Source: Siphonodentalium dalli
Taxonomy: Eukaryota > Mollusca > Scaphopoda > Gadilida > Siphonodentaliidae
DNA length: 64,000 nt
Assembly (NCBI GenBank): GCA_032622095.1
Contig: CP136061.1
Coordinates: 15,128,440-15,192,439 of the forward strand
Direction: 5' to 3'
A model generated the notes under the pieces. That model ran no database searches. It was not told the DNA's origin and worked only from the letters and a program-made list of their open reading frames with translations. A program made the translations under genes and the position numbers. Shown here one piece after another: positions 13,262-51,511 of the stretch. Each line of letters starts with the position of its first letter. The first letter of the stretch is position 1.

Positions 13262-13712
13262 TCAGATTACACGCTCATTTGGGAATGTTTTAACATCAGA
13301 GTCGGAGTCACTGGCTCCAATTTGCTCGTTGGACACACCAATCGGCTGGTCGAAAGCAGCAGACGACATCTCGATAGCAATGGGTTTCTGAATTGAGTTA
13401 TCCACCTTGTTGCTTTTGCGGCTGCGCGGCATTCGACTCGCAGATATGTTACTGTTCTGTTTGCCGCGACCATTGGTAACCACCTTGCCGTTGTGCCTAC
13501 TACAAAAACAGCGACAGCAACCACATAGTCCGATGCGACGATCGGTAGTTTCCATGGCGACCTCGTGTCTGTTTCCGCTACTATCAAGTGATGACCCGCT
13601 CTCGAGGCCCCGTTCGACCGTGTAGTTGCCGTAACCGCTGTCATGGCTGGCTAGTTCGCTGTCCGGTTCCCCGCTCACACCTCTCGTTGGTTCCTCTTCA
13701 CACGTGATCGCT
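13262..13712 (-). CDS. Last exon: cytoplasmic tail of the DSL ligand
   Basis: Begins after a 3' splice site (ATTCATATTATAG) with one base completing the codon left by the transmembrane exon, and runs 150 codons to TGA. The tail is hydrophilic and serine-rich, with SELASHDSGYGNYTVERG near its start, a cysteine cluster GLCGCCRCFC in the middle (possible palmitoylation or metal-binding, inference), a basic stretch PRSRKSNK, an acidic DSDSD and a hydrophobic C-terminus ERVI. Several DSL ligands end in PDZ-binding peptides; ERVI is not a canonical class I motif but has the required hydrophobic last residue. Lysines are present for the ubiquitination that DSL ligands need for endocytosis. An overlapping frame on the same strand is a shadow. 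Confidence 0.7.
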
Positions 13713-34700: not shown

Positions 34701-37700
34701 ATCCTGGCGGGCATCTACACGTATAATCGTTAAGTTCATCCTGACTGCACGGTGATCCTACCTGTAAATCCTGGCGGGCATCTACACGTATAATCGTTAA
34801 GTTCATCCTGACTGCACGGTGATCCTACCTGTAAATCCTGGCGGGCATCTACACCTATACTCGTTAAGTTCATCCTGACTGCACGGTGATCCTACCTGTA
34901 AATCCTGGCGGGCATCTACACGTATAATCGTTACGTTCATCCTGACTGCACGGTGATCCTACCTGTAAATCCTGGCGGGCATCTACACGTATAATCGTTA
35001 AGTTCATCCTGACTGCACGGTGATCCTACCTGTAAATCCTGGCGGGCATCTACACGTATACTCGTTAAGTTCATCCTGACTGCACGGTGATCCTACCTGT
35101 AAATCCTGGCGGGCATCTACACGTATACTCGTTAAGTTCATCCTGACTGCACGGTGATCCTACCTGTAAATCCTGGCGGGCATCTACACGTATAATCGTT
35201 AAGTTCATCCTGACTGCACGGTGATCCTACCTGTAAATCCTGGCGGGCATCTACACGTATACTCGTTAAGTTCATCCTGACTGCACGGTGATCCTACCTG
35301 TAAATCCTGGCGGGCATCTACACGTATACTCGTTAAGTTCATCCTGACACGTGGCACCATTCATGCAGTCGTTACCAAGGCAGTTATCGGCTCTCTCCTC
35401 ACATATGGTCCCTGTCCACCCACGTGGACACTTGCAGCGTACTCCTGAGTCGGTTTCTGCGCAGCTTCCGCCGTTAAGACACGTATTTCCAGCACAGACA
35501 CGCGATAGCTGGTCGCATTTAGTCCCTGTTACATAAACAGTAACCATAGTTTGTAGTTTACAAGCAACTAAATAAATAGTTTTACATTTCTTGAAGTCAT
35601 AGAAAAAGTTACAAAAATGTGTGTGTTACATATAATGTTATCATGCGCAATGATATGGTATATATAAGTTACCAACAATAGCATAGAGTTGTGCTTCTTT
35701 TATGCGCATAACAGTTAACAAGCCTCACAGATTAAGTTATAATCCGCAATGATGTGGTGTATGTTACAATTACATAGAGTTACGCTCCTTTAACTTGTTT
35801 ATGACCGGAGCTGCATTGGGGGCAGCATTAAGGTTACACTGGTGTAAATGTTTTCCATAGGACTCAGTGCTAACGTTTTAGCGTATAGTGTTGGCAATAT
35901 AAATGTTGGGTCCAAAATTTTCTTTAAATCTGAAAAATTGACATTTTGGGAAACTTTTTACCAAAAAAAATCATGTCTGTCTAGCAGGGAATTCGCCTTT
36001 AAATCTGATGTTTTCGTAACTAGTGTCAGAACCGCATAAAAAAATACAGTCATATTTTAGACCACACCAAAAAATTCAAACTTCACTACAAAGGGTTAAT
36101 TCCTGTGCCAATGGTTATTTTACCTATGGGAAATCATAGGGAAGAGGTGTGATGATTTTTTTATGTGAAAAGCACACAAGGCTATTGACCAATCAGGGCA
36201 CAGTGTCTATTTTATTCTCTCCTATATATTCCTCCCGCATCCGCTAGATGTCACTCGGAACCTTATTTACACCAGTGTAACCTAAAGCGATAGCCCGCTT
36301 TTTCGCGGAATAATTGTAACTCCCTACATTTCTTCAGAATTGCCCATCAATGGAAAAAATGTGTTCAAAAACAATATCACTTCTGTGGTTCTTTATTTAT
36401 CACACACAATTTAACCCCACCCTCTTTAACAAATTATTCATCAAAAAAGCACAATTTTCCACCACCAGTCATGTTCAGGCCCCATTTCACTCAGTTTTAG
36501 GGGTCTGGTGTTGCAAACTTGGATCAGCCATGGAAGACTGTTCAATATTCTTTCCATGAGAGAACTTCTGGTGATGTGCGGTCATTGAGTCCAGATCTGA
36601 TCAGCTGAGCATCAAGCGCATGACTTTATCAGCACATTGAAGAATAAAATATGACATTTTCAGGTCTGCAAGGGTGATCCAAGATAACTGGATGTGGGTG
36701 TATATTGAATTAGTTGAATAAAGATATGCTCTCTTTGAATTGCTGAAGCATTTTCTTAAATGTGTCCAAGTTTTAGTGCTATTAACCTTCAAATGACCAT
36801 ACCCACCAGTGGAAATGACACACTTTTATGATATATATCTGTATATCACTGGCTATAAAATCCAAAATACTTGTTAAATTAGGTTCTTATAACAATTGAT
36901 ATATGTGTCGTTGACATGCCCATGTTATGGGTCATTTGCATTATCATGTGACTATTACCACCTTGAAATTTTTTGAAAATACCTTGAAAAATTGGCATTT
37001 TTTATGAAAAATCTTACTATTTTTTTGGCTGATGTAAGTGAAAGAAGACATCAGCAGCAAGAATAGCCACATCAAGCATGAGATATTCATTGGACTGAAA
37101 GACCAGGCTCTGTAAAATGCATTAAAATGCTTTAAAGTGACTCACAGGAATCAAAAATGATAAAAAGCTATTTTTTCCCTTTAGGTTACACTGGTGTAAA
37201 TGTTTTCCATAGGACTCAGTGCTAACGTTTTAGCGTATAGTGTTGGCAATATAAATGTTGGGTCCAAAATTTTCTTTAAATCTGAAAAATTGACATTTTG
37301 GGAAACTTTTTACAAAAAAAAATCATGTCTGTCTAGCAGGGAATTCGCCTTTAAATCTTATGTTTTCGTAACTAGTGTCAGAACCGCATAAAAAAATACA
37401 GTCATATTTTAGACCACACCAAAAAATTCAAACTTCACTACAAAGGGTTAATTCCTGTGCCAATGGTTATTTTACCTATGGGAAATCATAGGGAAGAGGT
37501 GTGATGATTTGTTTATGTGAAAAGCACACAAGGCTATTGACCAATCAGGGCCCAGTGTCTATTTTATTCTCTCCTATATATTCCTCCCGCATCCGCTAGA
37601 TGTCACTCGGAACCTTATTTACACCAGTGTAACCTTAAGATAATGTGTTATTGCATTCTCGAGCCTCGCATATATAAGAGAATGCACTGACTTACAAGAC

Positions 37701-40700
37701 CAAAGTAAATATTGTTAGGCAAATGTATTATCGTATATATGCGAGGCTTCCTATGTGAGACTCGACTATATAAGCGAATGCATTCGCACAGGGTTTTCGC
37801 AAAAGCTCATTCATGGAAGGGTTGATGCACAAGACCAGCCAACTCGTCTTACAGTCTTACTCGTCTTATGGTCGACTCGCATATATAAGAGAATGCATTG
37901 GCACAGGGCATAACTGTAACCATCACAATGTGGTCAATGAGCCGGTTCCAATGATATCCATATTTGTATGGTTTTATTGAGACAGACCCAAGATAATTTA
38001 GGCTGTTGCAGCTTTATTTGGCCGTTTTGGCCGGTTTGTTGGGTAAAGGGTTAAATGTTCATGTAGGTTCATACTGGACGTATTTGATTCTGATATAAGC
38101 CCATAGTGGACGTATGCACGTTATTCCGTGTTATGACGTGGGCCACGATGAAAACACATTATAAAGAGCATACATCTCGTCGATTCAGGTTCATATATAG
38201 AGCGTAATGCTGCTGATTCAAATAATGCCGATATGGGCTTGAAATTGAAATGGTTTGAAATAAGTTCAATAATTATTAGTTTATTTTCAGGAGAGCATGT
38301 TGAGTTGTTACGTGCAATGAATTTTCCATAACAAGAGGATGGCCATGCTTCCTATATGATTTTTCCGACAATTTCCCAAAATATCTATAATAATACATTC
38401 AGTCTCCATATCGTTATTGGTCTATAATGGTTTATTATCGTAAATCGACGTCAGTGGTTAAGATAGCGTGATCAATTGGTCAACTCTCGCATCAATCTTA
38501 ATTCATCATAGCTCTAAACTCATACAATATCGGAACACTGATTTACATGCACCTATACGTATAGACGCGACCATTGCTTACTCGATCAATTACTCACTCG
38601 CTCGTCTATAAACGCAAGCAGAATCAAACAATCAGTCAGTAATCCAAACCCACCAATCTCCAATTCCCACCACCCATCGAACTCAAAACCCCATCCACCA
38701 AACCACCGCACTATACACAATAACACAACCCATAATCCACACACGTCTCACATGCACACTCCCTCTGCCAAGTTCATACTCACTCAAAAACAACCCCACC
38801 CACACATGCACACACTTTTGTTTTTAACAACCCAATCCTCACAGAAATCTCACCCAAAACCCAGACACCCACATATACCCACCTATTCACACGTGCACTC
38901 ACTCAATCGTTAGTTCGCTCGCTAGCTTACCTACTCACCAACCCTCATCAAAAGAGCCACGTGTTTCCCATCCAGACGAAATCCAGACATCCACCTAACC
39001 CACGCACTCACTCGCTACTTACTTATACTTACCAGTGTAGCCTGCGTGGCACGAACATATATGGTCATCATCGGCGGGTAGGCATGTTCCATGGTTACAT
39101 GAGTTTGATGCACACATTCCCCTCGTTGCCATGCAGGTTTCTATTCCTGAATCTAGAAATTATATAATTGGTGTGTTAGGGCTTCGTCGGTCTAGCTCCA
39201 ACGTTAATATGGTTACTATAGGGACGTGCCCCTTATTCCATTATCATTTATAATTTAGATGCTCCAGCTCTGTATCATATACTACCTGAAACATGTGTGC
39301 GCTTCGGAAGCCTTTATTCAGCGGCGTAGGGAGCTGCGGTCTATGTTTGCGCTTCGAGAGCCTTTGGTTAGTGGCTTTGCGCACATGTTTGATGTTTTGT
39401 TTTATTTTTAGAATGTGCTCCTTGCTAATTTTTTGAAGAACTGAGGCGTTCCAACAACCGTCGGGATACTTCTAGTCACCCCAACAAATCTGGTTGAAAT
39501 AGGCCATGGGACTCGCGAACAGATAGACATTATACAGACGGAAGGATAGACAGACAAACATATTCTACATTTTATGTAGATATTTGTATATCGCCCATAC
39601 TGATTACTTTCTGGTGCCATTTTCAAGACAAAATGTGAAATTCCGTACGATCAGTTGTTACCCCATAAACAATTTGAAATCCCGATAAAGGTTACCCCAT
39701 TGTGTGATTTCAGAAGTGGTTGGTCAGGTTATCTGAAACACCTCTATTGGGCCAAACAGGAAGCGGAAAGCAAACTGCACAGCTTTATCATATATCAGTC
39801 GCATTTGCTTACAAACTTAGCCATACCCACGTGAAACACATTCCCTGTTTATGTCTCTGGCATCGAAGATATCTTACACAAATAGCCATACTCACGCGTA
39901 ACACATCCCCTGTTTGTGTCTCTGATATCGAAGCTATCTTGCAAACTTAGCCAACAACGTGAAACACATTCCCTGCCTATGTCTCTGGCATCGAAGGTAT
40001 CGTACAAACTTAGACATACTCAAGTGTAACATATTCCCTGTCTGTGTCTCTGGCACCGAAGGTATCGTACAAACTTAGCCATACTCATGTGTAACACATT
40101 CCCTGTTTGTGTCTCTGAGATCGAATATATCTTACAAACTTAGCGCTAACCACGTGAAACACATTCCTTGTTTGTGTCTCTGGCATCAAGTATATCGTAC
40201 AAACTTAGCCATACTCACGTTTAACACATTCCCTGTGTGTGTCTCTGGCATCGAAGATATCTTACAATCTTAGCCATACTCACGTGAAACACATTCCCTG
40301 TTTGTGTCTCTGATGTCGAATATATCTTACAAACTTAGCCATACACACGTGTAACACATTCCCTATTTGTGTCTCTGAGATCGAATATATCTTACAAACT
40401 TAGCCATACTCACGCTTAACACATTCCATGTTTGTATCTCTGACATCGAAGATATCTTACAAACTTAGCCATATTCACGTGTAACACATTCCCTGTTTGT
40501 GTCTCTGGCATCGAAGATATCTTACAATCTTAGCCATACTCACGTGAAACACATTCCCTGTTTGTGTCTCTGATGTCGAATATATCTTACAAACTTAGCC
40601 ATACACACGTGTAACACATTCCCTATTTGTGTCTCTGAGATCGAATATATCTTACAAACTTAGCCATACTCACGCTTAACACATTCCATGTTTGTATCTC

Positions 40701-43700
40701 TGACATCGAAGATATCTTACAAACTTAGCCATACTCACGTGTAACACATTCCCTGTCTGTGTCTCTGAGATCGAAGCTATCTTAGAAATTTAGCCATACT
40801 CACGTGAAACACTTTCCATTTTTGTGTTCTCTGAGATAGAAGATATCTTACAAACTTAGCCATACTCACGTGAAACACATTCCCTGTTTGTGTTCTCTGA
40901 GATAGAAGATATCTTACAAACTTAGCCATGCTCACGTGAAACACATTCCCTGTTTGTGTCTCTGAGATCGAATATATTTTACAAACTTAGCCATACTCAC
41001 GTGTAACATATTCCCTGTTTGTGTCTCTGGCATCGAATATATCTTACAAACTTAGCCATACTCACGAGTAACACATTCCCTATTTGTGTCTCTGAGATCG
41101 AAGATATCTAAAAAATTTAGCCATGCTCACGCTTAACACATTCCCTGTTTGTGTTCTCTGAGATCGAAGATATCTTACAAACTTAGCCATGCTCACGTGA
41201 AACACATTCCCTGTTTGTGTCTCTGAGATCGAATATATCTTACAAACTTAGCCATACTCACGTGTAACATATTCCCTGTTTGTGTCTCTGGCATCGAATA
41301 TATCTTACAAACTTAGCCATACTCACGAGTAACACATTCCCTATTTGTGTCTCTGAGATCGAATATATCTTACAAACTTAGCCATACTCACGTGTAACAC
41401 ATTCCCTGTTTGTGTCTCTGACACCGAAGATATATTACAAACTTAGCCATACTCACGTGAAACACATTCCCTGTTTGTGTCTCTGACACCGAAGATATAT
41501 TACAAACTTAGCCATATTCACGTGTAACACATTCCCTGTTTGTGTCTCTGGCATCGAATATATCTTACAATCTTAGCCATACTCACGCTTAACACATTCC
41601 CTGTTTGTGTCTCTGGCATCGAATATATCTTACAATCTTAGCGCTAACCACGTGAAACACACTCCCTGTTTGTGTCTCTAGCATCGAAGCTATCTTACAA
41701 ACTTAGCCATACTCACGTGTAACACATTCCCTGTTTGTATCTCTGGCATCGAAGCTATCTTACAAACTTAGCCATACACACGTGTAACACATTCTCTGTG
41801 TGTGTCTCTGGCATCGAAGATATCTTACAAACTTAGCCATACTCACGTTTAACACATTCCCTGTTTGTGTCTGTGAGATCGAAGATATATTACAAACTTA
41901 GCCATACTCACGTGTAACACATTCAATGTTTGTGTCTCTGAGATCGAAGATATCTTACAAACTTAGCCATACTCACTTGTAACACATTCCCTGTTTGTGT
42001 CTGTGAGATCGAAGATATATTACAAACTTAGCCATACTCACGCTTAACACATTCCTGTTTGTGTCTCTGAGATCGAATATATATTACAAACTTAGCCATA
42101 CTCACGTGAAACACATTCCCTGTTTGTGTTCTCTGAGATCGAAGATATCTTACAAACTTAGCCATACTCACGTGAAACACATTCCCTGTTTGTGACTGTG
42201 AGATCGAAGATATATTACAAACTTAGCCATACTCACGTGTAACACATTCCTGTTTGTGTCTCCGATATCGAATATATCTTACAAACTTAGCCATACTCAC
42301 GTGTAACATATTCCCTGTTTGTGTCTCTGGCATCGAAGCTATCTTACAAACTTAGCCATACTCACGTTTAACACATTCCCTGTTTGTGTCTCTGGCATCG
42401 AAGCTATCTTACAAACTTAGCCATACTCACGTGTAATATATTCCCTGTTTGTGTCTCTGGCATCGAAGATATCTTACAAACTTAACCATAATCACGTGTA
42501 ACACATTCCCTGTTTGTGTCTGTGAGATCGAAGATATATTACAAACTTAGCCATACTCACGCTTAACACATTCCTGTTTGTGTCTCTGAGATCGAATATA
42601 TCTTACAAACTTAGCCATACTCACCTGAAACACATTCCATGTTTGTGTTCTCTGAGATCGAAGATATCTTACAAACTTAACCACACTCACGTGAAATATA
42701 TTCCTTGTTTGTGTCTCTGACATCGAAGATATATTACAAACTTAGCCATACTCACGAGTAACACATTCCCTGTTTGTGTCTCTGGCATCGAAGATATCTT
42801 ACAAACTTAGCCCTACTCACGAGTAATATATTCCCTATTTGTGTCTTTGGCATCGAAGATATATTACAAACTTAGCCATACTCACGCTTAACACATTCCT
42901 GTTTGTGTCTCTGAGATCGAATATATCTTACAAACTTAGCCATACTCACCTGAAACACATTCCATGTTTGTGTTCTCTGAGATCGAAGATATCTTACAAA
43001 CTTAGCCACACTCACGTGAAATATATTCCTTGTTTGTGTCTCTGACATCGAAGATATATTACAAACTTAGCCATACTCACGAGTAACACATTCCCTGTTT
43101 GTGTCTCTGGCATCAAGGATATCTTACAAACTTAGCCCTACTCACGAGTAATATATTCCCTATTTGTGTCTTTGGCATCGAAGATATATTACAAACTTAG
43201 CCATACTCACGTGAAACACATTCCCTGTTTGTGTCTCTGAGATCGAAGATATCTTACAAACTTAGCCATACACACGTGTAACACATTCCCTGTTTGTGTC
43301 TTTGGCATCGAAGATATCTTACAAACTTAGCCATATTCACGTGTAACACATTCCCTGTTTGTGTCTGTGAGATCGAAGATATATTACAAACTTAGCCATA
43401 CTCACGCTTAACACATTCCTGTTTGTGTCTCTGAGATCGAATATATCTTACAATCTTAGCCATACGAGTAACACATTCCCTGTTTGTGTTCTCTGAGATC
43501 GAATATATCTTACAAACTTAGCCATACTCACGCTTAACACATTCCTGTTTGTGTCTCTGAGATCGAATATATCTTACAAACTTAGCCATACTCACCTGAA
43601 ACACATTCCATGTTTGTGTTCTCTGAGATCGAAGATATCTTACAAACTTAGCCACACTCACGTGAAATATATTCCTTGTTTGTGTCTCTGACATCGAAGA

Positions 43701-46700
43701 TATATTACAAACTTAGCCATACTCACGTGTAACACATTCCCTGTTTGTGTCTCTGACACCGAAGATATATTACAAACTTAGCCATACTCACGTGAAACAC
43801 ATTCCCTGTTTGTGTCTCTGACACCGAAGATATATTACAAACTTAGCCATATTCACGTGTAACACATTCCCTGTTTGTGTCTCTGGCATCGAATATATCT
43901 TACAATCTTAGCCATACTCACGCTTAACACATTCCCTGTTTGTGTCTCTGGCATCGAATATATCTTACAATCTTAGCGCTAACCACGTGAAACACACTCC
44001 CTGTTTGTGTTTCTAGCATCGAAGCTATCTTACAAACTTAGCCATACTCACGTGTAACACATTCCCTGTTTGTATCTCTGGCATCGAAGCTATCTTACAA
44101 ACTTAGCCATACACACGTGTAACACATTCTCTGTGTGTGTCTCTGGCATCGAAGATATCTTACAAACTTAGCCATACTCACGTTTAACACATTCCCTGTT
44201 TGTGTCTGTGAGATCGAAGATATATTACAAACTTAGCCATACTCACGTGTAACACATTCAATGTTTGTGTCTCTGAGATCGAAGATATCTTACAAACTTA
44301 GCCATACTCACTTGTAACACATTCCCTGTTTGTGTCTGTGAGATCGAAGATATATTACAAACTTAGCCATACTCACGCTTAACACATTCCTGTTTGTGTC
44401 TCTGAGATCGAATATATATTACAAACTTAGCCATACTCACGTGAAACACATTCCCTGTTTGTGTTCTCTGAGATCGAAGATATCTTACAAACTTAGCCAT
44501 ACTCACGTGAAACACATTCCCTGTTTGTGACTGTGAGATCGAAGATATATTACAAACTTAGCCATACTCACGTGTAACACATTCCTGTTTGTGTCTCCGA
44601 TATCGAATATATCTTACAAACTTAGCCATACTCACGTGTAACATATTCCCTGTTTGTGTCTCTGGCATCGAAGCTATCTTACAAACTTAGCCATACTCAC
44701 GTTTAACACATTCCCTGTTTGTGTCTCTGGCATCGAAGCTATCTTACAAACTTAGCCATACTCACGTGTAATATATTCCCTGTTTGTGTCTCTGGCATCG
44801 AAGATATCTTACAAACTTAACCATAATCACGTGTAACACATTCCCTGTTTGTGTCTGTGAGATCGAAGATATATTACAAACTTAGCCATACTCACGCTTA
44901 ACACATTCCTGTTTGTGTCTCTGAGATCGAATATATCTTACAAACTTAGCCATACTCACCTGAAACACATTCCATGTTTGTGTTCTCTGAGATCGAAGAT
45001 ATCTTACAAACTTAACCACACTCACGTGAAATATATTCCTTGTTTGTGTCTCTGACATCGAAGATATATTACAAACTTAGCCATACTCACGAGTAACACA
45101 TTCCCTGTTTGTGTCTCTGGCATCGAAGATATCTTACAAACTTAGCCCTACTCACGAGTAATATATTCCCTATTTGTGTCTTTGGCATCGAAGATATATT
45201 ACAAACTTAGCCATACTCACGCTTAACACATTCCTGTTTGTGTCTCTGAGATCGAATATATCTTACAAACTTAGCCATACTCACCTGAAACACATTCCAT
45301 GTTTGTGTTCTCTGAGATCGAAGATATCTTACAAACTTAGCCACACTCACGTGAAATATATTCCTTGTTTGTGTCTCTGACATCGAAGATATATTACAAA
45401 CTTAGCCATACTCACGAGTAACACATTCCCTGTTTGTGTCTCTGGCATCAAGGATATCTTACAAACTTAGCCCTACTCACGAGTAATATATTCCCTATTT
45501 GTGTCTTTGGCATCGAAGATATATTACAAACTTAGCCATACTCACGTGAAACACATTCCCTGTTTGTGTCTCTGAGATCGAAGATATCTTACAAACTTAG
45601 CCATACACACGTGTAACACATTCCCTGTTTGTGTCTTTGGCATCGAAGATATCTTACAAACTTAGCCATATTCACGTGTAACACATTCCCTGTTTGTGTC
45701 TGTGAGATCGAAGATATATTACAAACTTAGCCATACTCACGCTTAACACATTCCTGTTTGTGTCTCTGAGATCGAATATATCTTACAATCTTAGCCATAC
45801 GAGTAACACATTCCCTGTTTGTGTTCTCTGAGATCGAATATATCTTACAAACTTAACCATACACACGTGTAACACATTCCCTGTGTGTGTCTTTGGCATC
45901 GAAGATATCTTACAAACTGAGCCATACTCACATGAAACACATTCCATGTTTGTGTCTGTGGCATCGAAAATATCTTACAATCTTAGCCATACCTACGTGA
46001 AACACATTCCATGTTTGTGTCTCTAGCATCGAAGATATCTTACAATCTTAGCCATACTCACGTGTAACACATTCCCTGTTTGTGTCTTTGGCATCGAAGA
46101 TATCTTACAAACTGAGCCATACTCACGTGAAACACATTCCATGTTTGTGTCTGTGGCATCGAAGATATCTTACAATCTTAGCCATACTCCCGAGTAACGC
46201 ATTCCCTGTTTGTGTCTCTGAGATCGAATATATCTTACAAACTTAGCCATACCTACGTGAAACACATTCCATGTTTGTGTCTCTAGCATCGAAAATATCT
46301 TACAAACTTAGCGCTAACCACGTGAAACACATTCCCTGTGTGTGTCTCTGAGATCGAAGATATCTTACAAACTTAGCCATACTCACGCTTAACACATTCC
46401 CTGTTTGTGTCTCTGATATCTAAGATATCTTACAAACTGAGCCATACTCACGTGTAACACATTCCCTGTTTGTGACTCTGAGATCGAATATATCTTACAA
46501 ACTTAGCCATACGTGAAACACATTCCCTGTTTGTGTCTCTGGCATCGAAGATATCTTACAATCTTAGCCATACGTGAAACACATTCCATGTTTGTGTCTC
46601 TGGCATCGATGATATCTTACATACTTAGACATACGTGTAACACATTCCCTGTTTGTGTCTCTGAGATCGAATATATCTTACAAACTTAGCCATACGTGAA

Positions 46701-49700
46701 ACACATTCCCTGTTTGTGTCTCTGGCATCGAAGATATCTTACAATCTTAGCCATACGAGTAACACATTCCATGTTTTTGTTCTCTGAGATCGAATATATC
46801 TTACAAACTTAGCCATACTCACGTGAAACACATTCCCTATTTGTGTCTCTGAGATCGAAGACTTCGCACACATCCGAGCACTCCTTCCCACAGTACGACG
46901 CTGAACAGTATACTTTGACCTCTATATGTAACCTAAAATGGATGTATGCTGGCAGTTCAAGTGCATGTCCCACGAAAACGACCATTGTGTGCGGCATTTC
47001 GAATGCCCCGACTTCGGTAATTGTTTTCAACAGATGGAAATTCCATGTGTGAAACAACATCACTTGGAATCTTCATACCAAACCACGTGCATGGGAGATC
47101 GACAAGACCAAACTACCTACACGCGAAGTCGACAAGAGGTCGGTAAAACGAAAACACGGGCACGGAGGTCGGTAAGACGAAACCACGTACACGGGAGGTC
47201 GGTAAGACCAAACCGCGTGCACGGGAGGTCGGTAAGACCAAACCACGTACACGGGAGGTCGGTAAGACCAAACCACGTGCACGGGAGGTCGGTAAGACCA
47301 AACCACGTACACGGGAGGTCGGTAAGACCAAACCACGTACACGGGAGGTCGGTAAGACCAAACCACGTGCACGGGAGGTCGGTAAGACCAAACCACGTAC
47401 ACGGGAGGTCGGTAAGACCAAACCACGTACACGGGAGGTCGGTAAGACCAAACCACGTACACGGGAGGTCGGTAAGACCAAACCACGTACACGGGAGGTC
47501 GGTAAGACCAAACCACGTGCACGGGAGGTCGGTAAGACCAAACCACGTACACGGGAGGTCGGTAAGACCAAACCACGTACACGGGAGGTCGGTAAGACCA
47601 AACCACGTACACGGGAGGTCGGTAAGACATTTACTCATTTTCATCATAATTAGCATGTTTTACGTCGCTCGCATTGCACATGATTGTATTTTGCTCACAA
47701 TTTATTTGTTGAATATTATTTGTCGAACATAGTAGGAGATGGTTCCAGCCAATAGCTGAATTTAGTGTACAGCACCCCATTAATCCTTTCAGTGCAAAGT
47801 CATGCAATTGAGTCATTGTTTCATCAAATAATGCTAAAGTACGCTTCTAACCAATTATTTTAACCAATTAATTAAGAATACAAGTAGGTTGACTCTGTTC
47901 TTTCGCATTTCCTCCATGTGGGCCGCGATGCGTTTCGATTCGATTTGATTTTGAATTTTCCATGGTTCGTAAATAGTATATGTTTTAAATATCAAAGTTG
48001 TGTAACAAAATAAATATATACGGTACTTCGCTTCACTCCCATCTTTCATTTTGGCTGTTGTATGGTATACAATACCAATCAACTTGACAAACGTGCTTCC
48101 TTCCTGCACTCTATCCCTCTACCCCCTCCTAGAACAATATTTTTTCGGATCTAACATGATATCCCGTCTGCTAAATTTACCCTATATTGGTATCTATTTT
48201 GATACCAAGGGTAAAACTTTTATTTCGAGGAAAAGACTCGATAAAAGCCTTTCAGGCTTGTTATCTAATCCCCATTTTTGAACATGTGTTGTATATTATG
48301 TCAATTTGTTTGTATGTGTTAAATGTTCTGTTCGAAAATTAAATATTGTTTACACTAAGTCCGATTTTTGTATCAACCCATATACCATGTGCAATGCATT
48401 CTCTTAGATATGCGAGTCGACCATAGGTCGCCTCGCATATATAAGAGAATGCATTGGCCTAACATTTTTCATCATTTGTTATTATTTTTTATAATTTTTT
48501 ACAATTTTAATATTTTTTTCTTATATTCTTTAACAGACTTATTTTGTAGGTTTAGTGCCAGGGAATCTTACGTTTTTCATGGGCATCAAACTTATTACTA
48601 TGAATACTTGGTGATAGTTTTGAGTTATAACATGCCCCTAAGGTTTTATCAAGTTTGTTTTTAAATTCGCCGTAGCATGCTTAAGCATACCCAAAACAAT
48701 TCAACCCAAAACAAAAACAATTTTTTTTTTTTTTTTTTTTTTAGGGCCGATCTTACAGACCATAAATTAGGGCCGATGAGATCAGCCCCTGGCACTGAAA
48801 GGGTTAAGACAACCGTTAAGACAACCGAACAACGTGCACGCACATGATATATCGCAGTGGTCGGTGTCATAACAGTTAGACTCAAAACTCACGTGATTGT
48901 ATTTGTTAATCAATACATTTTACACGATGAATACAACGGGACTATCTTGTGGTCGTATCTGATATGTCAGAACTGGGGGCAGAAGTGCAAACAAAATACA
49001 TACTAATAATAATCGACAATGTCCATGCTGGTTGAGAGAATATTTGTATAGAGTAGAGCGCAGCAATATAGAATATTATACATATTTGACTAGGTTGCGA
49101 CTATAAACACTGTACCATGCTAGATAATGGTTTATATATATATAATTTGTATTAAAAATGGATTATCTCTTAAAACAACACATGTTAGATACTTTCCTGG
49201 ATATGAAATAACGCGTATGAGTTGGAAATCCATGCCCGATAATGACTATCAATGTGTGAGGAAATCATTAGGATCTTTGTCTGAAATTATTTTGTCTGCA
49301 AAATTGGGCCCAATTTTGGTGTAGAATTCATTCAATTATTCTGCAATTTGGATTTTTACATTTAAATACTTATTTTTGTGTAAGAATTGTGATGATCCAT
49401 GATGTGAAACCGCCTGAATATTCGCTATAGTCACGTGATACGGCGATCAGTGTACGATCAGGTGTTGCATGACCTAAGTTTTACGATCTTGGGTGTGGTA
49501 TTATAGGCTGAAAGGCACAGTCGGGAAATAATCACATGAAGCGATGTTCAATACCTATACAAGGCATTTTGAGACATCTAGGGTGATGTAACACGGCGTC
49601 CGATGTAGAGTCAAATGGCGCGATGCATGATTCGTGTCCTACCTTTTGGATGACCGAGGGTTTGGTAACCATAGCGACACAGGCAAAGCTACTCTGCTAC

Positions 49701-49803
49701 TAGCTGAAGCCGCGGTTCGTATTGTTTTAGATAATGTCGTCACCAGTGTTGTTTCGCTCCGACTTCTGGAATGATCCACCCGAACCTTCAGCTTCGCCTG
49801 GCC
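13262..49803 (-). CDS. Divergent DSL (Notch ligand) gene, nine-exon model, 5' end missing
   Basis: Overall span of the hand-built gene; individual exons are listed separately. In transcript order: 49643-49803, 46823-46932, 39033-39152, 35298-35525, 32701-33555, 31529-31679, 22585-22759, 17502-17641, 13262-13712. Exit/entry phases run 2/2, 1/1, 1/1, 1/1, 1/1, 2/2, 0/0, 2/2, which is hard to get by chance. The model encodes about 800 residues: linker, DSL domain, ten complete EGF repeats plus a partial one, a cysteine-free juxtamembrane domain, one transmembrane helix and a tail of about 150 residues. Known Delta/Serrate/Jagged proteins are type I membrane ligands that activate Notch on neighbouring cells. 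Whether this one activates or inhibits cannot be read from the sequence. Signal peptide and most of the N-terminal MNNL region were not located. Introns carry most of the repeats in this window. Confidence 0.75.
13713..14082. other. Intron sequence
   Basis: 3' end of the last intron. A poly-C run lies at about 13756-13769. Nothing else stands out before the MITE at 14083. Confidence 0.5.
14083..14462. mobile_element. Hairpin-pair MITE with TTAA target site, copy A
   Basis: Flanked by TTAA on both sides (14079-14082 and 14463-14466), with terminal inverted repeats CCCTTTACCCAACA and GTTGGGTAAAGGG. TTAA duplication plus CCC-starting termini is the signature of piggyBac-type elements; no transposase is present. 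Inside are two near-perfect hairpins, each with arms based on CCAATGCATTCTCTTATATA then TGCGAG, in opposite orientation (about 14231-14300 and 14370-14437), separated by a T-rich spacer. A near-identical copy lies at 61119-61508. Confidence 0.85.
15029..15079. repeat. Perfect 21-bp-arm hairpin
   Basis: Left arm 15029-15049 starts GTTCAGATAATAAGTTCAAC and is perfectly matched by 15059-15079 across a 9-nt loop. It may be a foldback element remnant or a structured intronic RNA. No coding potential. Confidence 0.9.
15211..15305. repeat. Long hairpin with ~34-bp arms
   Basis: Left arm GTTATAAGCACGGCGTCCGA continuing TTTATAAGT (from 15211) pairs with 15277-15305. Pairing extends inward with one mismatch, leaving a ~25-nt loop containing GCGCCCGGAGG. 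CACGGCGTCC also occurs singly near 12222 and 49590, so this may be a dispersed family. Confidence 0.9.
15306..17501. other. Intron sequence without recognised features
   Basis: AT-rich. Short frames at 16037-16321 (minus) and 16674-16991 (plus) begin with ATG but have no recognisable motif and no splice context, so they are not called. Confidence 0.5.
17502..17641 (-). CDS. Transmembrane exon of the DSL ligand
   Basis: Bounded by a 3' splice site TACTTTATAG before GATATG and a 5' splice site AACAG|GTATGC; enters in phase 0 and leaves in phase 2. It encodes DMIPSSFLMAIAGVLMLIM then ICLVTVVIYVYLY followed at once by MRRRYRARNQERNN. A run of about 25 hydrophobic residues with a strongly basic stop-transfer segment on its C-terminal side is the standard topology of a type I membrane protein with the tail inside the cell. 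Read-through of the donor meets a stop within a few codons, which supports the splice. The 30-bp minisatellite begins only about 20 bp upstream in the intron. Confidence 0.75.
17662..18555. repeat. 30-bp minisatellite with HindIII site in nearly every unit
   Basis: About 30 units of AAGCTTAACACTCTCACGAT then GGTCATATAC. Unit length is kept at 30 bp (occasionally 31), so long frames stay open on both strands; none is a gene. Variants alternate between ATATAC and ATAAAC and between GATGGTCA and GGTGTTCA. The array sits inside an intron, right next to the transmembrane exon, and its last unit merges into the left end of the MITE at 18551. Confidence 0.95.
18551..18794. mobile_element. Second-family hairpin MITE with TTAA flanks
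   Basis: TTAA at 18547-18550 and 18795-18798 bracket termini CCCTCTCACAACGG and CCGGTCATAGAGGG. It contains the same CATTCTCTTATATA/TATAAGAGAATGCA hairpin arms as the 14-kb element, more diverged. Relatives occur at 32518-32686 and, split by another insertion, at about 35793-37820. Confidence 0.7.
18799..19230. other. 5' region of the DIRS element or its flank
   Basis: No clear terminal repeat could be identified by eye. The stretch 19080-19230 directly precedes the gag-like ATG and is probably the element's leader. Confidence 0.4.
19231..20391 (+). pseudogene. DIRS-type retrotransposon: gag-like region plus start of RT (386 codons)
   Basis: The ORF starts at an ATG in good context and opens with a helical, charged region (residues 1-175). 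A CCHC zinc knuckle CFLCLEAGHWKFEC follows at residues 187-200 (C-x2-C-x4-H-x4-C), used by gag proteins to bind nucleic acid. From about residue 285 it runs into the N-terminal part of a reverse transcriptase, including KKRLVLDCRHLN. The frame ends in TAG at 20389-20391 inside the RT domain, where a single-base frameshift moves the continuation to another frame. The domain order gag-RT-RNase H-tyrosine recombinase over 19.2-22.5 kb identifies a DIRS element rather than an integrase-bearing LTR element. It lies in an intron of the DSL gene on the opposite strand. Confidence 0.85.
20410..20885 (+). pseudogene. DIRS reverse transcriptase core
   Basis: Continues the RT domain after the frameshift: KYLGFSWIYEGQCLCTYFVF, then VLPFGISSAAQLFTKI and the catalytic YLDD at 20595-20606. 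LPFG and YLDD are the diagnostic RT motifs. The frame is stopped by a TGA at 20883-20885, after which the same frame continues into RNase H, so this is a single nonsense change in an otherwise continuous pol. Confidence 0.9.
20892..22091 (+). pseudogene. DIRS RNase H with an unusual insertion, and following region
   Basis: Same frame as the RT, downstream of one TGA. RNase H carboxylates are visible: VYTDASGTGYGG (Asp 73), STWRELEAV (Glu in WRELE), KLYTDNKA (Asp 190) and NESADALSRR (Asp 239). Between the first and second motifs there are about 55 extra residues (roughly 89-145, with AQGRGRRSGRPRIAPGASES) not expected in an RNase H fold. The part after residue 245 resembles the linker to the recombinase of DIRS elements. 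The frame closes at 22089-22091, just before the recombinase N-terminal domain. Confidence 0.85.
22150..22533 (+). pseudogene. Truncated DIRS tyrosine recombinase, N-terminal domain
   Basis: Reads KSRADNTVKKYYHNFSKWKS, then CNELPADSINVALFLTDFI and SVVSAHKYSLKWVHEH, the helical core-binding (SAM-like) domain of tyrosine recombinases. After HEHV the similarity stops; the catalytic Arg...His-x-x-Arg...Tyr domain is missing. The sequence passes into an unrelated-looking segment ending in (ATT)n at about 22542-22560, and a host exon starts 25 bp later. The element is therefore 3'-truncated and cannot have been active in this form. Confidence 0.8.
22585..22759 (-). CDS. DSL ligand exon: juxtamembrane region, part 2
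   Basis: 3' splice site GCTCTTCCAG, phase 2 entry; 5' splice site CTA|GTGAGT, phase 0 exit, both matching the neighbouring exons. It encodes TVVTQVSMVVHNKSGTLVDV then RELWEKINIDELDKHLDYTI and a Pro/Ser-rich YTGPVSPIPTGSVSDVRL just before the membrane exon. No cysteine is present, in contrast to the EGF region. One possible N-glycosylation sequon (NKS). Jagged and Delta proteins also have a cysteine-free stretch before the membrane where cleavage occurs; whether this is the same fold cannot be told by eye. The DIRS element ends 25-50 bp from the donor side. Confidence 0.7.
22835..22905. mobile_element. Hairpin MITE-like repeat, third copy
   Basis: GAGGTCCCGGTAGGATGAAT pairs with ATTCACCTTCTTTGGACCTC. 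Same family as 7348-7420. A weaker relative may lie at 23028-23115, where AGGTGCCCACTGGGTG faces CACCCTCTGGGACCT. Confidence 0.65.
23329..23397. mobile_element. Solo hairpin of the TTAA MITE family
   Basis: One near-perfect hairpin (CCAATGCATTCTCTTATATA and complement, loop containing CGACCTATGGTCG) without the terminal repeats seen at 14 and 61 kb. Confidence 0.85.
23398..23918. other. Intron sequence
   Basis: No gene or repeat recognised before the start of the minisatellite. Confidence 0.4.
23919..24297. repeat. 15/16-bp minisatellite, block 1
   Basis: Units ATGACCAACAGCAACA (16 bp) mixed with the 15-bp variants ATGACCAGGGCAACA and ATGACAACAGCAACA. All three minus-strand frames stay open (Leu/Val/Cys/Trp-rich); these are shadows. 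Confidence 0.97.
24298..25288. repeat. Duplicated spacer, copy 1
   Basis: Non-repetitive 990-bp segment between minisatellite blocks, repeated at 26864-27857 with a shift of about 2566 bp and only about three differences by eye (for example AATTAAAAAAATAA against AATTAAACAAATAA). A minus-strand frame stays open through part of it and joins the minisatellite frame; it has no recognisable domain. Confidence 0.9.
25289..26863. repeat. 15/16-bp minisatellite, block 2
   Basis: About 100 units of the same family as block 1. Rare variants (GGGCTACAATGACC near 25741, ATGATCAACAGC near 25829) recur in the same order about 2566 bp further on, so the block was duplicated as a whole. Confidence 0.97.
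26864..27857. repeat. Duplicated spacer, copy 2
   Basis: Second copy of 24298-25288, about 99.7% identical by eye. Together with the adjoining array it forms a tandem segmental duplication of about 2.57 kb. Confidence 0.9.
27858..29997. repeat. 15/16-bp minisatellite, block 3
   Basis: First about 1.5 kb mirrors block 2 at the 2566-bp shift. The rest is further expansion, including a rearranged repeat of the ATGACCAACAGAAACA marker (about 28666 and 29523). Confidence 0.97.
29998..31058. other. Intron sequence
   Basis: No exon supported. Near 30540-30720 there is a GC-richer patch (TACGGCCACCCTAAAACC, CTCGCGGTGGGGCTGCAGG) that looks like a fragment of an unidentified element. About 30748-30847 carries a weak inverted repeat GAACACC...GGTGTTC. 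Confidence 0.4.
31059..31471. mobile_element. TIR MITE, 413 bp
   Basis: Perfect 19-bp terminal inverted repeats: CTATTATAGTGGTATATGA at 31059-31077 and its complement at 31453-31471. No coding capacity. Class uncertain because no clear target-site duplication is seen. Confidence 0.75.
31529..31679 (-). CDS. DSL ligand exon: juxtamembrane region, part 1
   Basis: 3' splice site GTTATTTCAG, phase 1 entry; 5' splice site AACAG|GTAAGAAT, phase 2 exit. It encodes TGRLVIYLNGKVFDEAEEEL then IRSIFILLKFAPYDINIFAE and SYLYFLGLNR. The alternation of beta-like (LVIYLNG) and amphipathic helical segments suggests a small folded domain between the last EGF and the membrane, completed by exon 22585-22759. 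No match to the cysteine-rich domain of Jagged is seen. The junction with exon 32701-33555 is phase-compatible, but EGF11 would then be incomplete, so a small exon between them could be missing. The 3' splice-site region is duplicated in tandem upstream (31708-31745). Confidence 0.65.
31656..31745 (-). repeat. 52-bp tandem duplication of a 3' splice junction
   Basis: The exon start and its splice acceptor (31656-31693) recur almost exactly at 31708-31745, offset by 52 bp. On the minus strand both copies read CGTTATTTCAG then CTACTGGAAGGCTGG, so two equivalent acceptors lie in tandem. Use of the distal one would add 52 nt and shift the frame. Confidence 0.85.
31960..32390. mobile_element. TIR MITE with TTAA target site, 431 bp
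   Basis: TTAA at 31956-31959 and 32391-32394. Termini AGATACTCAATCCGATCAGA and its near-perfect inverse ending GGATTGAGTACCT. AT-rich interior with no transposase. A third TTAA-flanked family, distinct from the CCCTTTACCC MITEs. Confidence 0.8.
32518..32686. mobile_element. Second-family hairpin MITE beside a splice donor
   Basis: Termini TAACCCTTTCATGGCGGGAG and CTCCGGACATGGAAGGTTA. Interior CTCCTCTTATATGTGAGTCT is a diverged version of the CTCTTATATATGCGAG hairpin. Its right end lies about 14 bp inside the intron from the donor of exon 32701-33555. Confidence 0.65.
32701..33555 (-). CDS. DSL ligand exon: seven EGF repeats
   Basis: 855 bp, phase 1 to phase 1. 3' splice site TTATTTTTCAG; 5' splice site CAT|GTAAGTGC. 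After GKYC, which closes EGF3, seven complete six-cysteine EGF modules follow: starting DMCADVTCNNGGTC, QACSSSPCRGEATC, NPCDPNPCHGDSKC, NHCEPPCPSHAVC, NLCEPNPCFRGSTC, DLCNPNPCGEKQSC and HACAENMCANAGKC. An eighth starts (IPCLNKTCEHVHQP) and is cut by the donor. Several begin with calcium-binding-type D-x-D/N patterns, as in EINPC-like openings. Having seven modules in one exon suggests past intron loss or fusion, since EGF modules often have one exon each. Confidence 0.9.
33556..34695. other. Intron with two short tandem duplications
   Basis: A ~44-bp unit (TATATGCGACACCAGTGATT ...) is duplicated at 34045-34132. A 25-bp unit (CAATAAATGTTCACGCTATC ...) occurs 2.4 times from 34391 to about 34450. 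No exon supported. Confidence 0.7.
34696..35350 (-). repeat. 67-bp minisatellite made of an exon end plus its 5' splice site
   Basis: Ten units at an exact 67-bp period (starts 34696, 34763, 34830, 34897, 34964, 35031, 35098, 35165, 35232, 35299). On the minus strand each unit reads CAGGATGAACTTAACGA then GTATACGTGTAGATGCCC and GCCAGGATTTACAG|GTAGGATCACC. That is the last ~50 nt of the EGF3 exon, the donor, and the first bases of the intron. The unit closest to the exon (35299-35350) is the genuine exon end; the nine others lie downstream in the intron. Skipping the first donor meets a stop (GRITVQSG*), so only the first gives a functional product. Confidence 0.92.
35298..35525 (-). CDS. DSL ligand exon: EGF2 and EGF3
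   Basis: 228 bp, phase 1 to phase 1. 3' splice site TTATGTAACAG before GGACTAAATGC; 5' splice site TTTACAG|GTAGGATC. It encodes the last cysteine of EGF1 (GTKC), the whole of EGF2 (RVCAGNTCLNGGSC ... VRCKCPRGWTGTIC) and most of EGF3 (DNCLGNDCMNGATC ... YTCRCPPGFTG), whose sixth cysteine is supplied by the next exon (KYC). Cysteine spacing is canonical and both domains have the C-x-C-P-x-G-[WF]-x-G signature. The distal end of this exon is the seed of the 67-bp minisatellite. Confidence 0.9.
35832..37634. mobile_element. 1.8-kb element with 451-bp direct terminal repeats, TTAA flanked
   Basis: TTAA at 35828-35831 and 37635-37638. Two direct repeats, 35832-36282 and 37184-37634, both exactly 451 bp and about 99% identical by eye, flank a 901-bp interior. 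Each repeat itself begins GGTTACACTGGTGTAAAT and ends with the inverse ATTTACACCAGTGTAACC. The ends are not TG...CA and no gag/pol is present, so it is not an ordinary LTR element. It resembles either a composite of two TIR elements or an unusual LTR-like transposon. It is inserted in a second-family MITE (GACCGGAGCTGCATTGG on the left, hairpin remnants on the right). Confidence 0.8.
37635..37820. mobile_element. Right part of the MITE interrupted by the 1.8-kb element
   Basis: Contains GCCTCGCATATATAAGAGAA and a second diverged hairpin, ending near TCATTCATGGAAGGGTTGA. Its left part lies at about 35793-35831. Confidence 0.6.
37860..38050 (-). mobile_element. Truncated first-family TTAA MITE
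   Basis: Matches one half of the 14-kb and 61-kb elements in reverse orientation: one hairpin arm (GACTCGCATATATAAGAGAA), the AACCGGTTCC-like middle and the terminus TTGGGTAAAGGG followed by TTAA at 38051-38054. Confidence 0.8.
38057..38310. repeat. Dispersed repeat shared with 6.5 kb
   Basis: Diverged copy of 6500-6720 (shared AATAATGCCGATATGGGCTT). Confidence 0.65.
38570..39032 (-). other. G-poor, donor-like intron start
   Basis: On the plus strand this is rich in A and C and nearly lacks G. On the transcribed (minus) strand the intron after the EGF1 exon starts GTAAGTATAAGTAAGTAGCG and repeatedly contains GTGAGT, GTAAGC and TGGG. No coding potential. Confidence 0.6.
39033..39152 (-). CDS. 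DSL ligand exon: second half of DSL domain and EGF1
   Basis: 120 bp, phase 1 to phase 1. 3' splice site TATAATTTCTAG; 5' splice site TACACTG|GTAAGTAT. It encodes SGIETCMATRGMCASNSC then NHGTCLPADDDHICSC and HAGYTG. The first two cysteines complete the DSL domain begun in exon 46823-46932: C4-x9-C5-x5-G-x-C6, slightly shorter than typical DSL. The rest is a short EGF module closed by the next exon (GTKC), as usual in Delta-type proteins where EGF1 directly follows DSL. The 7-kb minisatellite separates it from the preceding exon. Confidence 0.8.
39153..39794. other. Intron sequence with a diverged duplication
   Basis: Two related segments near 39296-39335 and 39341-39380 share TTTGCGCTTCGAGAGCC-like sequence. 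Otherwise nothing recognised. Confidence 0.4.
39795..46822 (-). repeat. 7-kb minisatellite derived from the DSL exon end and its 5' splice site
   Basis: About 105 units of roughly 66 bp. On the minus strand the consensus reads TTCGATCTCAGAGACACAAA then CAGGGAATGTGT and TTCACGTGAGTATGGC followed by TAAGTTTGTAAGATATC. The first part equals the last ~36 nt of the DSL exon (FDLRDTNRECVS). GTGAGTATGG equals its 5' splice site; the rest is the start of the intron. Units carry 5-20% variation, many keep the GTGAGT donor, and some read GTTAAG, CTCGTG or lose it. A higher-order duplication with a shift of 2335 bp covers about 41.4-43.5 kb and 43.7-45.8 kb. Confidence 0.93.
46823..46932 (-). CDS. DSL ligand exon: first half of the DSL domain
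   Basis: 110 bp, phase 2 to phase 1. 3' splice site CATCCATTTTAG before GTTACATATAG; 5' splice site TTTCAC|GTGAGTATGG. It encodes LHIEVKVYCSASYCGKEC then SDVCEVFDLRDTNREC and VS. The pattern V-x-V-x-C-x3-Y-x-G-x2-C-x3-C followed by a cysteine 12 residues on is the N-terminal half of the DSL domain that contacts Notch. The second residue of the usual Y-Y-G is Cys here. An alternative acceptor (ACATATAG) nine bases on gives the wrong phase for the upstream exon. The end of this exon is the seed of the 7-kb minisatellite. Confidence 0.75.
46933..47089. other. Intron sequence next to the DSL exon
   Basis: Open in one minus frame and one plus frame; no splice-phase or domain support for coding. 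Confidence 0.4.
47090..47632. repeat. 30-bp minisatellite
   Basis: About 17 units of GGTCGGTAAGACCAAACCAC then GTACACGGGA. Units near the left edge are diverged (CGACAAGAGG, GGTAAAACGAAAACACG); the others differ only at GTAC/GTGC. Because 30 is a multiple of three, long repetitive frames occur on both strands. The palindromes CCACGTGC/GTGCACGGG and CACGTG are prominent. Confidence 0.96.
47633..48102. other. Intron sequence
   Basis: AT-rich, no gene or repeat recognised. Confidence 0.4.
48103..48360 (+). mobile_element. LINE-like 3' end, copy 1
   Basis: About 250 bp repeated at 57060-57335 (shared TTCCTTCCTGCACTCTATCC, ATATTTTTTCGGATCTAACA and AATTAAATATTGTTTACAC). The segment AAAAGCCTTTCAGGCTTGTT with TCTAATCCCC also resembles 55315-55360. 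Ending in AATTAAATATTG suggests the 3' UTR of a non-LTR element. Assignment is inference. Confidence 0.55.
48388..48463. mobile_element. Hairpin of the TTAA MITE family
   Basis: Near-perfect hairpin (TGCAATGCATTCTCTTAGAT and complement CATATATAAGAGAATGCATT). The T-rich spacer seen in the 14-kb element follows. A possible far end AGGGTTAAG is at about 48798-48806. Confidence 0.75.
48464..49642. other. Intron sequence
   Basis: Contains a poly-T run at about 48720-48742 and the short duplication TTAAGACAACCG near 48805-48827. No exon supported. Confidence 0.4.
49643..49803 (-). CDS. DSL ligand exon: linker before the DSL domain
   Basis: 161 bp, phase 0 to phase 2. Strong 3' splice site TTTTCTTTTGTACAG and 5' splice site TCCAAAAG|GTAGGAC. 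It encodes GQAKLKVRVDHSRSRSETTL then VTTLSKTIRTAASASSRVAL and PVSLWLPNPRSSKR. Joined in phase to exon 46823-46932 this gives W-x9-R-L-x-I-x-V-x-V-x-C, which resembles the segment between the MNNL and DSL domains of Delta proteins (a Trp, then a basic residue, then the first DSL strand). The residues upstream of the Trp match poorly. No upstream exon could be identified, so the start codon and signal peptide are missing from the model. Confidence 0.5.
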
Positions 49804-50488: not shown

Positions 50489-51142
50489 TCATTTCTGTTT
50501 GTGCTTCTTCTTTTTATGTGGCTTTTCTGTTGAGGATAGTGATGTTGGTTTGTCCTTCCGTTCTTGGTCTTTGCTGCTGGTCATTCGGATCATTCTGTCG
50601 GACTCTCGGAGCACTCTGCTGGACTCAGCTAAAGTCTTGTCGATTCTTTCTTGTTGCTCAGATATTCTTTGCTGCATGGCTCTCTGTTGTTCTTTTTCAT
50701 CCTCATCTTCGAAGTAGTTGTTGTTGTTGTTGGTGGAGGAGCTGGGGGACACCGGGATAAGATGGAATTCCGGTGTCCGTGGTGGCAAGCTGTCCAACTC
50801 CACCTCGAAGCTGGTGGCAGGAACAGCAGGGGTGGTTTCCTGCTCCCTTTCTCCGCTCGCCTCGACGACGACAGCAGGGACCTCCAGCAGATCAACGGAG
50901 TCCCTTCTAGCTGATGCAATGTCGCCTGTCTCCATGCAGGTCGGGTCGTCTGGGCGTCTCTCAGACAACTCAGACCTGCCGGTTGTGACCTTGGACGTCG
51001 GCTGAACCACAAGGGGAGGGGTGACTGGCAGATCAACAGTCACCCCCATCTCCTTCTTCCATTTGGCTCGTCCGGCGGCGTCCCTTCTATTCCTCGCAGG
51101 CGTCTTTTTCTTCGGCGGCCCCTTCTTCTTCCCACTCTTCAT
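50489..51142 (-). CDS. Uncharacterised charged, low-complexity protein
   Basis: 217 codons from the first ATG; the frame is open about 100 nt further upstream (QGLPDPLPGVPDCNAG ...) to a TAG. Basic N-terminus (MKSGKKKGPPKKKTPARNRR), a Pro/Ser/Glu-rich middle, an Asn run (TNNNNNYFEDEDEKEQQ), a Gln/Arg-rich stretch likely to form a coiled coil (QQRISEQQERIDKTLAES), and a lysine-rich C-terminus (EKPHKKKKHKQK) typical of a nuclear signal. I do not recognise the family. Codon use and higher GC differ from the flanks. A retrotransposon ORF1 or a processed gene copy are both possible; about 350 bp beyond its upstream end lies a 1.8-kb repeat element. Confidence 0.5.
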   Translation of the reverse strand: MKSGKKKGPPKKKTPARNRRDAAGRAKWKKEMGVTVDLPVTPPLVVQPTSKVTTGRSELSERRPDDPTCMETGDIASARRDSVDLLEVPAVVVEASGEREQETTPAVPATSFEVELDSLPPRTPEFHLIPVSPSSSTNNNNNYFEDEDEKEQQRAMQQRISEQQERIDKTLAESSRVLRESDRMIRMTSSKDQERKDKPTSLSSTEKPHKKKKHKQK

Positions 51143-51511
51143 AGAACAGGAGGCAGTCTTGGCATTGGCTTCCCGGGTATGTGATCTCTGGATGCCAGCA
51201 TTGCAGTCCGGAACTCCAGGCAAAGGGTCAGGTAATCCCTGCTAGACTGGAGACTCCAGTTAGCAATGTCCAATACCCGACTCTTTTGCACTGCGCCAAC
51301 ACAGCTTCGTGGATTAAGTTCATAAGCCTAATCCAAAACTGTCTCACCGGCGTTAATCACGAGGGCAGCTGCACCCGGATGCGCGACCACACGACTCACC
51401 CGTGCTCAACGCTCTGACAGAGAGGAACTAATGCAACCGAAGCAACCACGACTGGTTCGCTCCACTCCCTGCCAGAGTATAGCCGGCATCGGCGTCAACA
51501 AACACTTTATA
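51143..51511. other. GC-richer sequence upstream of the ORF
   Basis: May be the 5' part of the same mobile element or gene as 50489-51142. No motif recognised. Confidence 0.35.

Follow-up and report, generated by a model that had tools for sequence, protein, structure and literature searches.

In a gene of the scaphopod Siphonodentalium dalli that, judging from its sequence, looks like a Notch-ligand gene, the end of one coding exon and the 5' splice site attached to it are repeated in tandem through most of the following intron, and our analysis confirms that this array is genuine. The gene lies on the minus strand of the 64,000-nucleotide stretch that was analysed (the window: assembly GCA_032622095.1, contig CP136061.1, positions 15,128,440 to 15,192,439), to which all positions below refer. 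We consider it probable that the array, a minisatellite of the "mirage" type described in amphioxus, has expanded neutrally and is tolerated, the first donor being used in splicing while the others leave with the intron. With 73 further GTGAGT hexamers standing behind one true donor, and with a stop codon met on the way to every one of them, the gene offers a natural test of the spliceosome's choice of an exon-attached donor.

Anatomy of the main array

The exon concerned, which we call e1 (46823-46932), ends in a true 5' splice site, GTGAGT, at 46817-46822, and the main array extends over 39803-46858 of the minus strand. Cutting it on that strand against the true end of e1 (36 nt) and 29 nt of the intron delimits 109 units of about 65 bp, of which unit 0 corresponds to the exon's own end and the other 108 are intronic copies, the last one ending at 39803. 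The unit is therefore itself an exon-intron junction, 36 nt of the exon end followed by 29 nt of intron, and its length is exactly 65 bp in 79 of the 109 units. Tandem Repeats Finder (TRF) returns a single array at 39808-46861, with a period of 65, 109 copies and 88% matches, and 7,020 bp of the 7,670-bp intron between e1 and the next exon, e2, are occupied in this way.

Aligned unit by unit to the true junction, the 108 copies have a mean identity of 0.902 (minimum 0.815), which splits into 0.883 for the exon portion and 0.925 for the intron portion. A chance likeness to the exon end is ruled out, since the alignment scores of the copies average 103.5 and never fall below 78, whereas 2,160 shuffled units do not exceed 20. 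The preliminary description of this window had named a match no better than that of shuffled sequence as the finding that would speak against it, and had proposed that the unit joins the exon end to the real 5' splice site; this proposal is borne out, as is its statement that most copies hold GTGAGT (an exact hexamer is kept in 73 of the 108). Some of its figures needed revision: the exonic part is indeed the last 36 nt, the intron part is 28-29 nt and not about 20 nt, and its approximately 105 copies become 108 plus the true one. The real GTGAGT was correctly placed after the exon, and setting its start at 46822 is a small correction. The earlier observation is, in short, correct and somewhat understated.

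The copies are of 64 distinct sequences, and the array has an internal history. A block of 2,075 bp is present twice, at 43763-45837 (units 16-47) and at 41428-43502 (units 52-83), with one mismatch between the two, which is the outcome expected from unequal exchange and, within this one assembly, hints at such exchange in the past. Whether recently duplicated or an artefact of assembly, the twin blocks call for caution over the copy number. A somewhat unlikely alternative, compatible with neutral expansion, is that the array is real and its length was inflated in assembly, for instance by joining two haplotypes inside it; the nearly perfect repetition of the block speaks for this, but 64 distinct sequences could not have arisen as assembly copies of one unit, so that only the block would be affected. 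The lowest mean identities to other units belong to units 106, 1 and 4 (0.78-0.79), and the divergence of the array ends is only a tendency, since the interior units 44 and 93 are nearly as low (0.80); the value for unit 0 is 0.89.

We also considered whether the copies have a coding role. In the exonic part of the 64 distinct copies 8 of the 21 possible synonymous single changes occur and 25 of the 78 possible non-synonymous ones (P 0.61), and in the absence of any synonymous excess the copies do not look translated. Selection preserving the donor hexamers was likewise rejected: mean departure from the consensus is slightly higher at donor positions (0.125) than in the exon part (0.084) or the other intron part (0.061), a value that six randomly drawn columns equal in 15% of draws.

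The host gene

According to our analysis six exons can be joined into one frame. An upstream exon, e0 (49643-49803), possibly encodes the end of an MNNL domain and is placed by alignment to a jagged-1-like protein of Argopecten irradians (P0015), in frame with e1. The latter, an open frame, carries the first half of a divergent DSL-like domain, and e2 (39033-39152), whose acceptor closes the 7,670-bp intron, carries its fifth and sixth cysteines and the first EGF repeat. Further EGF repeats follow in e3 (35298-35525) and e4 (32701-33555), both in the joined open frame, and e5 (31529-31679), in an open frame running on from e4, is probably the juxtamembrane region. Exons e1 to e4 make one open frame of 437 codons, and e0 to e5 joined are free of stops in one frame, the other two holding 15 and 47 stops; because the six joined exons stay open, the boundary of e1 is well supported. 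Downstream there are a candidate transmembrane exon (17502-17641), with a hydrophobic stretch followed by basic residues, and, in frame with it, a candidate cytoplasmic tail exon with a stop codon (13262-13712). This part has weak similarity to homologues, and no exon connecting it to e5 was found.

The assignment to Notch ligands made in the preliminary description is supported by the architecture and by similarity to jagged and delta-like proteins, even though Pfam does not report the DSL model PF01414 at E up to 1. The EGF repeats are recognised over 10 stretches (PF00008, E 6.7e-46), and the best relative of solved structure is Delta-like protein 1 (E 2e-49), with its best stretch in the EGF part; by themselves such repeats are not specific to Notch ligands. 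Against a profile built on nine DSL proteins the DSL-like part scores 20.7 bits. The best of 1,000 plain shuffles reaches 8.6 and the best of 1,000 cysteine-preserving shuffles 19.1, both short of that score, and since the latter come up to 19.1, much of the score is cysteine spacing. The DSL domain of this gene is, as far as its sequence tells, divergent. As had been claimed, the alignment can be read so that the e1 junction splits this domain between the fourth and the fifth cysteines.

From e0 onward the protein is 31% identical over 343 columns to P0015 of Argopecten. The possible MNNL end agrees with the same protein at 38% over 37 residues (E 0.033, in a comparison of four sequences only), and Pfam gives no MNNL match at E up to 1. 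There is no close relative among the 68 protein matches, whose identity is 27-61%, the two above 50% covering at most 12% of the query; the best named matches are Branchiostoma proteins at 31-37% identity. As the search set included three Branchiostoma sources, an origin in Branchiostoma, from which the known boundary repeats come, would be expected to yield much closer matches.

Further boundary duplications in the same gene

The e1 junction is not the only one to be repeated; two further cases, which the preliminary description had not noticed, lie in this gene. A second array (34694-35297) consists of ten 67-bp units, counting the true junction, each made of the last 49 nt of e3, its donor and further intron (18 nt intronic). 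Nine of its units are on average 98.5% identical in pairwise comparison, and the donor CAG|GTAGGA is present in 9 of the 10 units with the true one included; read-through past the e3 donor meets a stop 23 nt into the intron. The third case concerns an acceptor: a 52-bp tandem duplication in two copies (31650-31765) spans the acceptor of e5 at 31679, with agreement at 41 of 46 positions on a shift of 52 and 87.5% identity in an alignment of 64 columns, and the upstream copy, if used, would give a stop. It may represent the way in which such arrays begin. The numbers of units within this one gene are thus 2, 10 and 109, three stages on which the origin and expansion of these arrays could be tested directly.

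As two more boundaries carry tandem duplications, it would be logical to suggest that a general process, rather than the e1 donor itself, is the likely common cause. Tandem arrays of all kinds cover 34.7% of the window (22,207 bp; 62 TRF rows merged to 36 intervals) and therefore arise at many places in it. Boundaries lie within arrays in 3 of 15 cases, which is no excess over this coverage or over the 22.4% of the window taken up by arrays without a boundary. A search of the 15 known boundaries against the window gave no fourth case. The e4 donor has one 26-bp match elsewhere in the window, and the acceptor of the transmembrane exon has 26 extra matches, of which 25 are only to a 30-bp array on its intron side and one, of 25 bp, spans the boundary inside another array and is taken as chance. 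The 30-bp array itself, of about 30 units (17661-18559), stops about 20 bp before this candidate acceptor and leaves the boundary uncopied.

Comparison with known boundary repeats

In amphioxus, "mirage" minisatellites have been described as tandem repeats across exon-intron boundaries of Adh3, the globins BflGb6 and BflGb9 and troponin C, and similar boundary repeats of 3 x 108 bp are present in PGBD5 (PMC3087553; PMC3902484). In the relevant passages of these two reports AG or GT signals are found in many, not all, units, donor and acceptor boundaries are both hit, and regular splicing is seemingly undisturbed, with cryptic use called possible (PMC3087553; PMC3902484). The two haplotypes of BflGb6 have 6 and 3 units.

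The arrays described here are alike in that the unit spans an exon-intron boundary (36+29 nt, 49+18 nt and the 52-bp acceptor duplication), and that the splice signal is kept in many but not all units (GTGAGT in 73 of 108 copies). The diverged ends of amphioxus clusters, as these reports present them, have a partial counterpart in our units 106, 1 and 4, which the interior units 44 and 93 nearly match. Unlike BflGb6 (6 and 3 units) and PGBD5 (3), the e1 intron holds 108 copies over 7 kb, and this single gene has three boundaries affected. The array is a mirage-class minisatellite, a described kind of repeat that the preliminary description had not recognised, and it is larger than the published copy numbers with which it was compared, namely those given for BflGb6 and PGBD5. 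This little-noticed class of repeats, known from lancelets, reaches another phylum if the host is molluscan.

A human parallel is the 6-16 gene (IFI6/G1P3), in which a minisatellite reportedly gives multiple splice donor sites; its units are said to be of 12 bp, with several of the donors actually used. The donor is repeated there as it is here.

In human duplicated genes, internal tandem repeats at boundaries alter gene structure, with average units of 30 bp repeated four times and with new introns backed by transcripts (PMC2812944). As far as that report's account of these repeats goes, they share the boundary position with our arrays and differ in the shorter units and the transcript-backed introns. 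Introns of amphioxus VCBP3 hold complete or partial exons that resemble adjacent ones, some with canonical splice sites (PMC2632668); the likeness is in the intronic exon copies, and a tandem arrangement is not described in the part of that paper concerned with them. No molluscan case of a boundary minisatellite was recognised in the literature searched, a weak negative, as subscription journals were thinly covered there.

Origin of the array and choice of donor

From what is directly observed (how the array is built, the open frame and the intronic stop, the numbers of donors and the doubled block) we infer the following course of events. A stretch of 65 bp running from the last part of a coding exon into its intron would have been duplicated in tandem, and the copies would have multiplied into the intron by unequal exchange or slippage. 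Since a whole exon end with its donor is present in each unit, an in-register exchange that involves the real exon would regenerate a working exon end, and growth or shrinkage of the array would be harmless to the protein. The exon-attached first donor would then be chosen, perhaps aided by its distance from the acceptor of e1 itself, and the remaining copies would be removed with the intron, presumably without effect on fitness. The exon probably came first, because the exonic pieces that were copied code for features also found in homologues, the fourth DSL-like cysteine in the main array and the last part of an EGF repeat in the second.

The reading frame, if continued past the true e1 donor, is closed by a stop 11 nt into the intron; transcripts using a downstream donor would therefore yield no full protein. 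Why the copies should be silent is less easily said, and a number of observations weigh against simple neutral tolerance. Donors were scored with a human donor matrix, on which the true donor, whose base -1 is C, scores 8.7, 43 of the 108 copies score at least as high, and five units with CAG|GTGAGT reach 13.0, so that the silence of the copies is not explicable by weak sites. Units 1-5, nearest to the exon (46488-46793), are all without the GTGA of the donor, and GTGAGT is present in 0 of these 5 units versus 73 of the remaining 103 (Fisher P 0.003), in 2 of the first 10 (P 0.002) and in 5 of the first 16 (P 0.002), a scarcity that could reflect selection against near competitors. These P values should be read with caution, because the units are related by descent and not independent; when the array is rotated, 2 of 108 starting positions give as low a count over five units, and 13 of 108 do so over sixteen. 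The GTGA deletion occurs in seven units altogether (1-5, 16 and 52), and its presence in the nearest five may go back to one deletion which then spread.

It is on these same observations that a competition of donors, as suggested in the preliminary description, can be built, in which the exon extends to a donor of the array, an in-frame stop follows, the transcript is destroyed or truncated, and the copy number tunes the output of the Notch ligand. The 73 hexamers, and the 43 copies scoring at least as high as the true site, would supply the competitors, and the stop would give a null product from any copy. The first GTGAGT copy is unit 6, whose use would make a 481-nt exon, and the five units before it have no strong donor, as though near competitors had been cleared. 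However, such clearing may stem from the one deletion spread by duplication; the second array keeps a donor identical to the true one in 8 of its 9 copies; and the amphioxus precedents, so far as described in these reports, come without disturbed regular splicing (PMC3087553; PMC3902484). We regard this competition as unlikely.

In single-strand folding the unpaired probability is 0.58 for the true donor, 0.23 and 0.44 for the next two GTGAGT copies and 0.21-0.82 for ten donors of the middle of the array, which amounts to some, but no clear, structural masking. None of the four types of poly(A) hexamers looked for occurs within the main array, AATAAA is present twice in the final 650 nt of the array-bearing intron, and a guarding role of the donors against early cleavage at poly(A) signals, while not suggested by this, would still be conceivable.

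One may even imagine, as quite a long shot, that arrays at exon edges are a general and recurring outcome in this lineage. The array would then be a phase-locked store of exon ends and donors in exchange with the real exon, through which array variants could rewrite the end of the protein without ever breaking the junction, while selection would clear strong donors only within the few hundred nucleotides where competition could occur.

We give very little credence to the view that internal units (AG, 24-27 nt, GTGAGT) are spliced in as small exons and lengthen the DSL-like domain by short peptides. Such AG-to-GTGAGT spacings do recur through the array, the five CAG|GTGAGT units would give an in-frame insert of 27 nt, and the best array AG is preceded by pyrimidines at 11 of 16 positions against 10 for the true e2 acceptor, which puts the array AGs at no evident disadvantage; but only about 39 nt (by eye) separate a donor from the next AG, which is short for an intron, the insert brings an odd cysteine, and the reading frame is unconserved among units. 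The opposite order of events, in which an intronic repeat existed before the exon extended into it and took its last 36 nt and donor from it, is just as improbable. Identity between array and exon end gives no direction by itself, but in both arrays the alignment with homologues runs over the edge of the repeat, the exon piece holding the fourth DSL-like cysteine in one and the last part of an EGF repeat in the other.

Other features of the window

The first 600 nt after the e2 donor (38433-39032, minus strand) are GT-rich and contain 7 GTRAGT motifs, where 200 shuffles give a mean of 1.17 and a maximum of 5; no clear repeat unit is visible there. Further into the same intron an element of about 450 bp is present in two copies, at about 35830-36285 and 37185-37635 (minus strand), with inverted ends resembling TTACACTGGTGTAA (by eye).

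Inside the gene, on the opposite strand, lies a retroelement (19183-22533, plus strand), which we take to be DIRS-like. For its open reading frame at 19183-20391 Pfam gives only a weak zinc knuckle, and among the 120 matches listed 26 name the organism: 22 come from bivalves, 3 from Candidatus Thiodiazotropha bins and 1 from a sea urchin, with no Branchiostoma among them. Judged by protein similarity alone, the host would be taken for a bivalve, with a cephalochordate other than Branchiostoma as a less likely choice. Another open reading frame, at 50492-51241, has no match (0 of 652 candidates).

Arrays with a 16-bp unit form several blocks between 23905 and 29996. An 11-bp repeat with equal consensus and equal length is found at 24647-24684 and again at 27213-27250, which points to the duplication of a block of about 2.6 kb. 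By eye, a short palindrome around CCAATGCATTCTCTTATATATGCGAG is seen repeatedly in the window, at about 14235-14440, 18640-18760, 37690-37900 and 48400-48460.

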